From: Erysipelotrichaceae bacterium NK3D112
GTDB taxonomy: Bacteria > Bacillota_I > Bacilli_A > Erysipelotrichales > Erysipelotrichaceae
DNA: 64,000 nt
NCBI GenBank assembly: GCA_000701725.1
Contig: JNJQ01000012.1
Span: 1-64,000, forward strand
Direction of reading: 5' to 3'
The notes below the pieces were generated by a model. The model worked only from the letters and a program-made list of their open reading frames with translations. It was not told the origin of the DNA and ran no database searches. This document shows, piece after piece, positions 14,739 to 18,541 of the stretch (position 1 is the first letter of the stretch; each line of letters starts with the position of its first letter). Position numbers and translations under genes: made by a program.

Positions 14739-15215
14739 TTATTTGTGATACGGTTCATTCCGTCTGATCCGGAAGGAACGGTAAATCTGTTCCAGCACGA
14801 TGATCCGGCAAAGCTGATGCGGAAAGGTTCCGCTGGAGAGTTTCCAGCGCAGATCCGCCCGCTGAATCAGCTGCGGACTGAGTCCGAGCGAGCCGCCGAT
14901 CACAAAATCGATCCGGTTATGCGATGTGTTGTAAAGTGTTTCCATCTTCTCGGCAAGCGCTTCGGAGGTGAATTCCTTGCCCGCCAGATCCAGCAGAATC
15001 ACATAGTCATCGTCCCTGATCTGTTTCAGAAGACGTTCGCCCTCGATCTGCTTGACCTGTTCGTTTTCAGCGGCGGAGTTGCTTTCCGGCGCCTTTTCAT
15101 CGGCTGTTTCGATGATCTCAATGCGGTCATAGGGACTGATTCTCTTTGTGTAATCATCAATCCCGTCTTTCATCCAGCCCTTCTTCACCTTGCCGCAGGC
15201 GATTATTCTGATCAC
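14739..15215 (-). CDS. rlmH: 23S rRNA (pseudouridine1915-N3)-methyltransferase RlmH
   Basis: RlmH is a small SPOUT methyltransferase that modifies pseudouridine 1915 in helix 69 of 23S rRNA, using S-adenosylmethionine. The SAM-binding knot is visible in DFVIGGSLGLS (about residue 105) and the conserved C-terminus reads FPHQLCRIIVLEQIYRSFRI and ends with YHK. The 158-residue length is normal. Its start overlaps the upstream htrA-like gene by four bases. Location behind walJ and an htrA-type gene is the usual Bacillota arrangement. Confidence 0.98.
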   Translation of the reverse strand: MIRIIACGKVKKGWMKDGIDDYTKRISPYDRIEIIETADEKAPESNSAAENEQVKQIEGERLLKQIRDDDYVILLDLAGKEFTSEALAEKMETLYNTSHNRIDFVIGGSLGLSPQLIQRADLRWKLSSGTFPHQLCRIIVLEQIYRSFRIRRNEPYHK

Positions 15216-16258
15216 TGCAGAATCACGCTCACTTCCTTTGTTTCATTGTTGCGCAGAATGCTGAAATGCACTTCATCACCGGGCTGATGTTCATATAGCT
15301 CCTGCATCAGAACGGATTCATCGCTTAATTGCACGGTGTCCATGCTCATGAGGATATCGCCTTCCTCAAGAATGTCGATTACAGGTGAATTCTCCGCGAT
15401 GTATGTCACCATCACGCCGGAAGTCACATCCAGCTTGATGTTCCGCTCGCTCTTTTCATATGCGCGCATGGAGCTGACACTGCGCACGGTCACGGAGAGT
15501 GAACCTCTTATGACTTCGCGGGTTTCCTTCATTTCGTCATATAGGATTTTCAGCTCATTGGAGCAGATGGCGCTGCCCATTCTGTCGCCGCCATAGGAGC
15601 GGGTGATCATCATGCCGATCATCTGACCGCCGATATTGAGCACAGGACCGCCCATCATCTCGCCGGTCACATTGCCGTCAAAATCGATCGTGGTCGCAAA
15701 CCAGGAGCTTCCCGCAAGAATTCTGCGCTGGGAAGGTCTTGATACAATGCCGTAGCTCATTGGCGCGCTCTGGCTCAGCGGACTGCGCCCGCCCAATACT
15801 GCCGCGTATTCGCCCTGTCTGACAAGGGAGCTGCTCGCGATGCGGATCAATGACACTTCGAAGGACGGATTGACTCTGAGCAGACAGACACCGGTGTCCT
15901 CATCGCCTGCCACATATTCCGCCTCCACCGATGCGGAGCTGTCGAAAATCACTCTGACGCCCTCTTCGTCATAGCCGCTCTGATCGCATGTGAGCACATA
16001 GACGCCGCTGTCGTCACGGGCATAAACGATGCCGCTGGTGATGTGGCGGATGCCGCTGGTCCAGGTTTCGACGGTGACGATGGAGCTTCTGACATCCTCC
16101 GCCATTTCGGAAAGGTCATTGGAATAGTCCACCACAACGCTTTCGGGCTCGCTTCCGCTGTTTTCGCGGGGCTGTTTCGGATCATTGAAGATGAAATAAG
16201 TCAGGGCCGCATTCCAGAGCAGCAGTCCAGCTAACACTGCCAGCATCCATTTTTTCAT
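15212..16258 (-). CDS. HtrA/DegP-family protein without catalytic residues (pseudoprotease) with PDZ domain
   Basis: An N-terminal membrane anchor (residues 4-24) precedes a trypsin-like domain (about 45-235) and a PDZ domain (about 270-348, with PVIDILEEGDILMSMDTV). It sits at the htrA position between walJ and rlmH. The fold-specific landmarks are there, but the catalytic ones are not. Where HtrA has TNNHV this protein has LTCDQSG (89-95), where it has TDLAVL this has TGVCLL (122-127), and where it has GNSGGP this has GEMMGGP (199-205). His, Asp and Ser are therefore all replaced. An extracytoplasmic scaffold or sensor is more likely than a protease. AAAGGA before the ATG at 16258 fixes the start, which overlaps walJ by 77 bases. 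Confidence 0.85.
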   Translation of the reverse strand: MKKWMLAVLAGLLLWNAALTYFIFNDPKQPRENSGSEPESVVVDYSNDLSEMAEDVRSSIVTVETWTSGIRHITSGIVYARDDSGVYVLTCDQSGYDEEGVRVIFDSSASVEAEYVAGDEDTGVCLLRVNPSFEVSLIRIASSSLVRQGEYAAVLGGRSPLSQSAPMSYGIVSRPSQRRILAGSSWFATTIDFDGNVTGEMMGGPVLNIGGQMIGMMITRSYGGDRMGSAICSNELKILYDEMKETREVIRGSLSVTVRSVSSMRAYEKSERNIKLDVTSGVMVTYIAENSPVIDILEEGDILMSMDTVQLSDESVLMQELYEHQPGDEVHFSILRNNETKEVSVILQ

Positions 16259-17009
16259 AGCCAAATCCTTTCCGGATCATTTCATGCTGGCCCGCAGCAG
16301 AGATGATCAGCCTCTCATTCAGTCTTTCAGGGCACTGTGAGGAAAGAAACCGGACGGTTGTTTCCAGTGCCTTTTCACGTGTGTTTGCCTCCTGCGAGAT
16401 ATGGGCGAGAATCACCGCTTTTGTTTTCGGGGTGATGATTCTGCTCAACACATCCGCGCAATCCTCATTGCAGAGATGTCCCTGATCACTGTAAATCCGG
16501 TATTTCAGGAACTGCGGCCTTCTGGTCGCCATCAGCATTGCCACATCGTGATTCGACTCCATGACAATGTAATCCGCATCATAAAGCAGCGGCAGGTAAT
16601 TCTGATTCACATAGCCGGTATCGGTGATATAGACCAGCTTTTCAATGCCGTCCTCAATCACGTATCCGACTGTCCCCGGCGCATCGTGAGACAGCGCAAG
16701 CGGGGTGATTTTCATCGTTTCCAGGGTGAAGGGCTTCATCGGCTGCACATGGAAACTTTCAATCCCGTCGATTTCCACCGGCGAGTAAACAGGCAGATCC
16801 GCAAAGGTGCGGATCTGGGCAATGTGGTCGCTGTGATCATGGGTGATCAGCACCGCATCCAGCTCATCCCTGCTGATGGAGAGTTTGTCCAGACAGGAGA
16901 GCAGATATTTTTTCGTGGTGCCGCAATCGATCATGATCAGGCCGGTTCCATCGCGTATCACAAAGCTGTTGCCTTTGGAGCCGGAAGCCAGTAATGCAAA
17001 TTCCATCAT
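16182..17009 (-). CDS. walJ: WalJ/YycJ-type metallo-beta-lactamase-fold hydrolase
   Basis: This cytoplasmic MBL-fold protein belongs to the YycJ family, linked in Bacillota to cell-wall and DNA-replication coordination. The start region MMEFALLASGSKGN is typical, and the metal motif THDHSDH is near residue 60. Later ligands are seen in ITDTGYV and VILAHIS. I start at 17009, where ATGA overlaps the stop of the M23 peptidase gene; an earlier in-frame start would add 13 residues unlike the family. Its last 25 codons overlap the start and anchor of the next gene. The WalRK kinase pair and WalHI, which often precede walJ, are absent from this stretch. Confidence 0.9.
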   Translation of the reverse strand: MMEFALLASGSKGNSFVIRDGTGLIMIDCGTTKKYLLSCLDKLSISRDELDAVLITHDHSDHIAQIRTFADLPVYSPVEIDGIESFHVQPMKPFTLETMKITPLALSHDAPGTVGYVIEDGIEKLVYITDTGYVNQNYLPLLYDADYIVMESNHDVAMLMATRRPQFLKYRIYSDQGHLCNEDCADVLSRIITPKTKAVILAHISQEANTREKALETTVRFLSSQCPERLNERLIISAAGQHEMIRKGFGYEKMDAGSVSWTAALECGPDLFHLQ

Positions 17010-18541
17010 CCTGCCGGCACCGCCTCGCAGCTGAGATAGCCGCTGCACGCATCCATCGGATTGAGGAAGTCCTCATCGCCGTCATTGAGCACCATGAAGT
17101 GCACATGCGGGCCGGTTGCCAGGCCGGTCATGCCGATATGTCCGATGACATCGCCCTTGCGCACCGTATCGCCCGTTTTGAGCTCGGAAGGCTCACGGAG
17201 ATGGCCGTAGTATGTCATCAGGCCGTTGTTGTGGTTGATGATGATGTAATAGCCGTTGATGAATGTATAGCTGTTTGTCTGAACCACGCCGGTATCTGCC
17301 GCATAGACATCCCCCCAGCGGTCATACTGGTTGATGAAATCGGTTCCGTTATGTCCCCAATAGCATCCGATGCGGCATGTGATGGCCGGGTTGTCAACCG
17401 GATATCTCATATTGCCGGTACCGACATTGGGCTGCTGCATGGTTCCGACCGCGATCACTTCGGTGGTCGGGGCCGTGACTTCAACGCTGGACTGTTCCGT
17501 ACCGACAACCAGCACGCCGTTGATCCACTTCTCGTTGTAAAGCACATTGCGTGAGCCGTTGACGCCTTCCTGCCTGACTTCGGATTCGCCGATCAGCAGG
17601 GTTTCATCCTCCACATATGTGGTGTCATAATACACCGGCACAAGACGCAGCGACTCCTTTGTCACAACGACATCAATCGGCGATTCGAAGTAGGTTACGC
17701 AAAGCTGATCCCCCTCTTCAAGCGCCTGGTCGACGGAGCTGATCTTGTCGCGGTTGAGATTCATGATCTGGGTCGCGGAAAGACCGTGGTTTTTCGCGCC
17801 GACACCGGCCACGGAGTCATATTTCTGGACTGTATAATATTCTCTTTCGGTATTGGAGCCGTATTTGAGATATTCCAGAATCGCCTCTTTGGTAACGAAG
17901 ATCTCATCGGGCGACGCATAATCCTTGGCGGTGGCAACCCGCTGGGTGACGGCAATGCCGGTGTCCTGTGAGCCGTATGTGGTCAGAGGCGGAATGGTAT
18001 CGCCGTTGCGGATCGCGCTGAGCGAGGCGGCATCGGTGAAATTCATCACGTATTCGTTGAAGGCCTGCTGGTAAAGCTCCTCGCTTGCCACGTAAATTCT
18101 TGAATAGACGCCGGTTTCATCGCTGAACGAAACAGCGGTTGCCTCCAGCGTGTACAGGGAATTCCTGTCCAGATAATCCATGATTGCCTGGTCGCAGTCT
18201 GTATAGGTGATATAGCTCTGCTCACTGGTCATGTACATGTCCTGGGCAAGTGAGACCGCGGAATCGGGATAATCCTTTTCATAGCGTTCCTTGTAAACCT
18301 GCTTCAGATGCCATGTCAGCTTGTTCTCATCATGAACAATGCCGATCAGTTCTCCCTGTCTGTAAATGGGATGGATGGTGACCGGAGACTGCACGATCCG
18401 CAGGGGCTGCTGATCAAACAGACCGATCTCTCCCGTTTCATTCAGCTGCCGCGAGGAGGAAACCCCGCCGAAGCCCGGGAAAAAGAACACAATCAAAACA
18501 GCCGCAATGAAACAGATCAGCGCTGCTAGTAATTTTTTCAT
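17006..18541 (-). CDS. membrane-anchored LysM/G5/M23 endopeptidase
   Basis: An N-terminal membrane segment (residues about 3-24) anchors an extracytoplasmic protein of 511 residues. A long N-terminal region is followed by a LysM-like segment (YYTVQKYDSVAGVGAKNHGL, about 240-290), a G5-like domain (EVRQEGVNGSRNVLYNEKW, about 315-355) and a C-terminal M23 domain (about 385-505). The zinc motifs HNGTDF and PHVHF are intact, so active peptidoglycan cleavage is expected. It sits between dnaB and walJ, where many Bacillota carry the walRKHI genes, and so may be the wall-acting member of this operon. Confidence 0.9.
   Translation of the reverse strand: MKKLLAALICFIAAVLIVFFFPGFGGVSSSRQLNETGEIGLFDQQPLRIVQSPVTIHPIYRQGELIGIVHDENKLTWHLKQVYKERYEKDYPDSAVSLAQDMYMTSEQSYITYTDCDQAIMDYLDRNSLYTLEATAVSFSDETGVYSRIYVASEELYQQAFNEYVMNFTDAASLSAIRNGDTIPPLTTYGSQDTGIAVTQRVATAKDYASPDEIFVTKEAILEYLKYGSNTEREYYTVQKYDSVAGVGAKNHGLSATQIMNLNRDKISSVDQALEEGDQLCVTYFESPIDVVVTKESLRLVPVYYDTTYVEDETLLIGESEVRQEGVNGSRNVLYNEKWINGVLVVGTEQSSVEVTAPTTEVIAVGTMQQPNVGTGNMRYPVDNPAITCRIGCYWGHNGTDFINQYDRWGDVYAADTGVVQTNSYTFINGYYIIINHNNGLMTYYGHLREPSELKTGDTVRKGDVIGHIGMTGLATGPHVHFMVLNDGDEDFLNPMDACSGYLSCEAVPAG

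Follow-up and report, generated by a model that had tools for sequence, protein, structure and literature searches.

The HtrA-position gene and its operon

The window (the whole stretch of DNA analysed, 64,000 nucleotides) carries an operon in which a G5- and LysM-containing M23 peptidase, walJ, an HtrA pseudoprotease and rlmH follow one another in this order, all on the minus strand. The features are as follows, with domains and residues of the pseudoprotease listed under its gene.

17006..18541, minus strand: M23 peptidase carrying G5 and LysM domains; in the window its zinc ligands (H, D, HxH) are all present
16182..17048, minus strand: walJ, encoding a metallo-beta-lactamase-fold protein; at its 3' end it shares 77 bases (16182-16258) with the beginning of the HtrA gene
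15212..16258, minus strand: HtrA-derived pseudoprotease gene; 348 aa, open frame; Pfam Trypsin_2 (1.2e-12) and PDZ_2 (3.1e-12); same-place orthologues family-wide
16187..16258, minus strand: N-terminal membrane anchor, residues 1-24 (MKKW...WN); helix 2-24 in the AlphaFold model
15521..16117, minus strand: trypsin-like (pseudoprotease) domain, residues 48-246; Pfam match 75-216; aligned by VIA-align to the DegQ and HTRA1 protease domains
15980..15982, minus strand: former catalytic His, now Gln93; H in 43/43 intact-triad relatives and in 0/67 of the genus (67 species taken, 3 rows gapped at this position)
15890..15892, minus strand: former catalytic Asp, now Gly123; D in 43/43 intact-triad relatives; in the genus Gly 30/67, Asp 28/67
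15785..15787, minus strand: Arg158, gained, G-S-P of active relatives having become G-G-R; R in 62/67 of the genus
15653..15655, minus strand: former catalytic Ser, now Met202; S in 43/43 intact-triad relatives; in the genus S 5/67, never seen with His
15215..15514, minus strand: PDZ domain, residues 249-348; PDZ_2 3.1e-12
14739..15215, minus strand: rlmH; its GTG start lies in a GTGA that also contains the HtrA stop, so that the two genes overlap by 4 bases

The HtrA-position frame runs from an ATG at 16258 to a stop ending at 15212, with no internal stop. The original prediction had placed a gene of HtrA layout (membrane anchor, trypsin-like domain, PDZ) between walJ and rlmH, with an M23 peptidase two genes upstream; walJ and rlmH were indeed identified on either side on the same strand, as was the peptidase, and the layout itself was borne out by Pfam and by structure. 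An AlphaFold model of the window protein had a mean pLDDT of 90.1 and the HtrA fold, and VIA-align matched it to Legionella DegQ with a Z of 30.9 over 281 residues, and to the protease domains of DegQ or HTRA1 at ~2 Å over ~185 residues. Pfam found both the trypsin-like and the PDZ domain in each of the 33 members scanned. The window protein also matches the NCBIfam HtrA models, yet falls under the cut-off of every one of them. We noted little synonymous change in the part shared by walJ and the HtrA gene (16182-16258); walJ/HtrA overlaps of similar size are usual within the window's genus and absent from several other genera.

The window motifs read VLTCDQSG, DTGVCLL and GEMMGGP, as the original prediction had given them, and alignment put Gln93, Gly123 and Met202 at the places of His, Asp and Ser. 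GEMMGGP is no insertion into GNSGGP: it aligned with PGNSGGP without a gap, so that Ser, Asn and oxyanion Gly have all been replaced, with the following GG retained. Further losses in the window protein affect the oxyanion Gly (200), L3 Arg177 and the L2 positions at ~226-232, all of which intact relatives keep (loops named as in HtrA generally). The oxyanion Gly, the L1 loop, L3 Arg177 and the L2 positions are lost in most other members of the genus as well. At the column of the gained Arg158, Pro stands in the four intact relatives set beside the genus rows and in 86% of intact relatives. The model for an intact relative shows a short helix after the catalytic His, which the window model lacks; the intact orthologue from Anaerorhabdus furcosa was predicted with a pLDDT of 86 and compared by secondary structure only.

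Collectively, the window protein shares anchor, trypsin-like domain, PDZ and fold with HtrA, DegP and DegS (MEROPS S1C), among them the walJ-linked HtrAs of other Erysipelotrichaceae. It is an HtrA by architecture and fold, but one that has neither His, Asp and Ser nor the oxyanion Gly nor the L3/L2 activation residues. Judged by these residues, it has probably lost protease activity.

Spread and timing of the triad loss

Of the 70 species in the window's GTDB genus, a genome search found the HtrA gene in 67 (G012 was left unjudged because its contig ends in walJ). Lactimicrobium massiliense belongs to the genus, as do many rumen and gut MAGs labelled 'Solobacterium'; in GTDB, Bulleidia takes in Solobacterium moorei, Lactimicrobium and Galactobacillus (PMC12786226). 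None of the 67 species has an intact His-Asp-Ser triad, and given a high-confidence fold that matches HtrA over its full length, the loss lies far beyond chance or error. The original prediction had named two results that would tell against it, a triad at other positions and a mutation of this strain alone among normal relatives. Neither was seen: alignments of the window protein and of the 67 species rule out an intact triad at shifted positions, and the agreement of 67 species rules out a single-strain mutation or an assembly error.

Could the protein still cut through a rearranged active site? In favour of this, Asp is kept in 28/67 species and Ser in 5/67. However, His is seen in no member, and the oxyanion Gly, L1, L3 Arg177 and L2 have gone with it in most, including the window protein. 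Moreover, in sequence alignments the window protein had no substitute His or Ser at a displaced site, and in the alignment of the 67 species no substitute column of His or Cys exceeded 28/67. We therefore regard residual cleavage of this kind as extremely improbable. In five genus members (L122, L022, L107, L116 and L067) the Ser loop does have Ser, either kept or gained back; four of the five cover the His loop, and all four are without His there.

Outside the genus, 37 of the 47 inspected orthologues of the family, from 27 genera and including that of Anaerorhabdus furcosa, retain His-Asp-Ser, while two have Thr for Ser and eight have lost the triad. Nearly all adjoin walJ, M23 or rlmH. The M23-walJ-HtrA-rlmH operon extends across the family, and in the 27 other genera the same operon place is held by an HtrA with an intact triad, in keeping with the original prediction that the locus encodes a protease in other lineages, as far as its residues can indicate. 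In the sister family, walJ directly adjoins rlmH, and HtrA lies elsewhere, intact.

In a tree of WalJ and RlmH, the genus formed one clade (support 99) with intact lineages outside it; the triad label needed eight changes on this tree, at least four of them forced by strongly supported branches. A tree of HtrA from which the catalytic loops had been cut out again gave the genus as one clade (99), with at least three changes needed for the other losses. The pseudoproteases of the genus are nested among intact walJ-linked orthologues, which points to descent from an active HtrA, and because the genus is one clade, the pattern suits a single ancient loss. Outside the genus, the triad was lost at least three more times, the exact number being uncertain in quick trees with long branches.

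Constraint on the gene and a second HtrA

Taking eight pairs of close species together, the pseudoprotease gene had a dN/dS of 0.105-0.108; the same pairs gave 0.129 for walJ, 0.081 for rlmH and 0.056 for M23. By contrast, active orthologues gave 0.026 (three pairs), so the pseudoprotease evolves approximately fourfold less strictly (0.108 vs 0.026). Within the gene, dN/dS was 0.083 for the protease core, 0.255 for the former His loop and 0.121 for the PDZ domain, which at ~0.12 is about as constrained as the whole protein. The former Ser loop gave 0.015 in a small sample, and between close species 1 of its 64 positions had changed against 143 of 1592 (p = 0.04); this comparison was picked after looking, and the low change is only suggestive. 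The anchor-coding part had a pS of 0.155. We set aside extra conservation of the anchor as a sign of function because the anchor lies in the 77-base walJ overlap, which by itself lowers variation there.

A dN/dS of ~0.1 together with the clade-specific Arg158 indicates a gene constrained less than the active protease and much like its ordinary neighbours. The gene is maintained by purifying selection and is not decaying; the original prediction had called it intact and maintained, which holds, since there is no internal stop and its dN/dS of 0.11 falls between those of walJ (0.13) and rlmH (0.08). A dying HtrA whose frame stays open only through the walJ overlap and its coupling to rlmH would account for the overlaps of 77 and 4 bases, for the relaxation relative to active orthologues, and for remnants of the gene in G071 and G076. 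We nevertheless consider slow decay very unlikely. The gene persists in 67/70 genus genomes with no internal stop seen, its dN/dS stays at ~0.1, near neighbour-gene values, over the whole protease and PDZ parts, far past either overlap, and a frame kept merely as a spacer would not preserve amino acids.

G071 and G076 are small-genome species that have lost the HtrA gene and kept M23, walJ and rlmH. The remnants, at L264:2185-2488 in G076 and in L265 of G071 (genomes of 1.4-1.5 Mb), consist of the anchor followed by frame breaks.

The window genome encodes a second HtrA in which NNHVV and GNSGG are preserved, and the second copy was intact in 13 of the 13 congeners in which it was read. On contig C4 of the window genome, L261:933-1988 encodes a 352-aa protein whose N-terminal domain is TIR-like by eye; it also has a membrane helix and a trypsin-like domain in which H, D and S are present. 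A further HtrA match was present in 7/7 genera with triad loss and in 18/27 with His kept (one-sided p = 0.09). Such a distribution would suit a pseudoprotease that regulates its active paralogue, by forming mixed trimers with the intact HtrA or by blocking it, and there is a parallel in MamO of magnetotactic bacteria, which promotes MamE-dependent proteolysis without an active site of its own (PMC4794232). Yet the association is weak and equally expected if redundancy merely permitted the loss, and at ~21-25% identity between pseudoprotease and second HtrA mixed trimers are unlikely. We judge regulation of the paralogue to be quite unlikely.

The M23 peptidase and the proposed role

The M23 and HtrA genes stay adjacent even in genera where walJ no longer sits between them. 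M23 occurs without HtrA at the locus in 4 of the 14 genomes lacking HtrA there, and HtrA without M23 in three genomes with enough flank, so the link between the two is not strict. Zinc ligands of the M23 peptidase are lost in 5/62 loci of the genus with the dead HtrA, against 0/41 loci of other genera with HtrA, and these losses fall in two sublineages of the WalJ+RlmH tree. M23 proteins with HDAS, HDML, HNHY or FDHT instead of HDHH were seen at L189 (Lactimicrobium massiliense), L191, L025, L187/L128 and L126. No shared PDZ-ligand motif was seen at the M23 C-terminus, the tails of which differ in length and sequence between species. WalH (YycH) was rejected as a partner, since the window genome gave no match to YycH.

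A link of the HtrA pseudoprotease to the M23 peptidase is plausible, with indirect support from the conserved adjacency and from the ligand losses confined to this genus; the original prediction, borne out in part, had suggested a scaffold, an inhibitor or a sensor, perhaps for this peptidase. A further-reaching version, which we put forward as an unlikely one, is that the pair has become a non-enzymatic structural or signalling assembly of the envelope, in which HtrA catalysis was lost first, genus-wide, and the M23 zinc ligands afterwards in two sublineages, one made up of Lactimicrobium massiliense and its relatives, the other of G072/G086. If true, two enzymes, one for the wall and one for quality control, would now act jointly without catalysis.

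The triad has been lost, yet the gene is kept about as strictly as its neighbours, which suggests a job at the cell envelope that probably involves no cutting. We slightly favour the view that the ancestor of the GTDB genus (Bulleidia sensu lato) had a membrane-anchored HtrA which lost catalysis a single time and has since persisted as a binding module; the best reading is an envelope scaffold or holdase that bears a PDZ domain. The pseudoprotease would be exposed on the outer side of the membrane and, as in other HtrAs, would probably form a trimer. With its PDZ domain and its altered active-site surface it may hold exported clients or an envelope partner and leave them uncut; the leading candidate partner is the M23/G5/LysM wall hydrolase encoded in this operon. 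The separate, intact HtrA would be left to cleave misfolded exported proteins. The loss of the gene from G071 and G076 counts against this explanation, in that the gene must be dispensable at least there, and so do the loose pairing with M23 and the weaker constraint relative to active orthologues.

Chaperone activity of DegP without proteolysis is established, and protease-dead DegP and DegQ still act as chaperones. A chaperone function of HtrA is likewise stated in the literature (PMC12735335; PMC8592123). The protein might thus be a holdase only, binding unfolded exported proteins in general with no dedicated partner and no role tied to the operon, as the retention of fold and PDZ after the loss of catalysis and the similar constraint on PDZ and protease core would allow. 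The strongly conserved M23-walJ-HtrA-rlmH neighbourhood and the gain of Arg158 point to a more specific role, however, and we think this plainer alternative rather unlikely.

The protein is a real, clade-wide, selected HtrA pseudoprotease, and its nearest precedent is MamO, an HtrA that was turned non-catalytic and kept for another function (PMC4794232). As with MamO (PMC4794232), pseudoproteases arose several times in parallel and the catalytic loop L1 is altered. In MamO, His and Asp persist, a TauE transporter domain forms the C-terminal part and metal is bound via a di-histidine motif (PMC4794232), whereas the window family has a PDZ domain, no conserved His column (best 28/67) and a Gram-positive gut host. 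A MamO-like surface di-histidine metal site is ruled out by the lack of a conserved His or Cys column. As for a bond with the wall, mycobacterial HtrA acts with LppZ on the wall amidase Ami3 and restrains this hydrolase (PMC12735335). There, too, an HtrA is tied to the control of a peptidoglycan hydrolase, but it is an active protease, so the likeness is a functional analogy and not evidence.

HtrA is often discussed as protease and chaperone, and natural lineages with the non-cutting half alone are rare. In the open-licence literature searched we found no Gram-positive HtrA pseudoprotease, and MamO was the sole bacterial HtrA found there to have kept the non-cutting half. For annotation, calls of 'trypsin-like peptidase' at the walJ-rlmH locus of these gut bacteria are probably wrong on activity. 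The family offers a natural series in one operon, with 27 genera intact, two HtrAs with Ser replaced by Thr, and several independent complete losses; since the series includes a cultured commensal, a non-catalytic role of HtrA is testable without engineering. The two Thr-bearing proteins, at L129 (g27) and L138 (g44), are walJ-linked and have His and Asp, as in MamO, possibly a halfway state.
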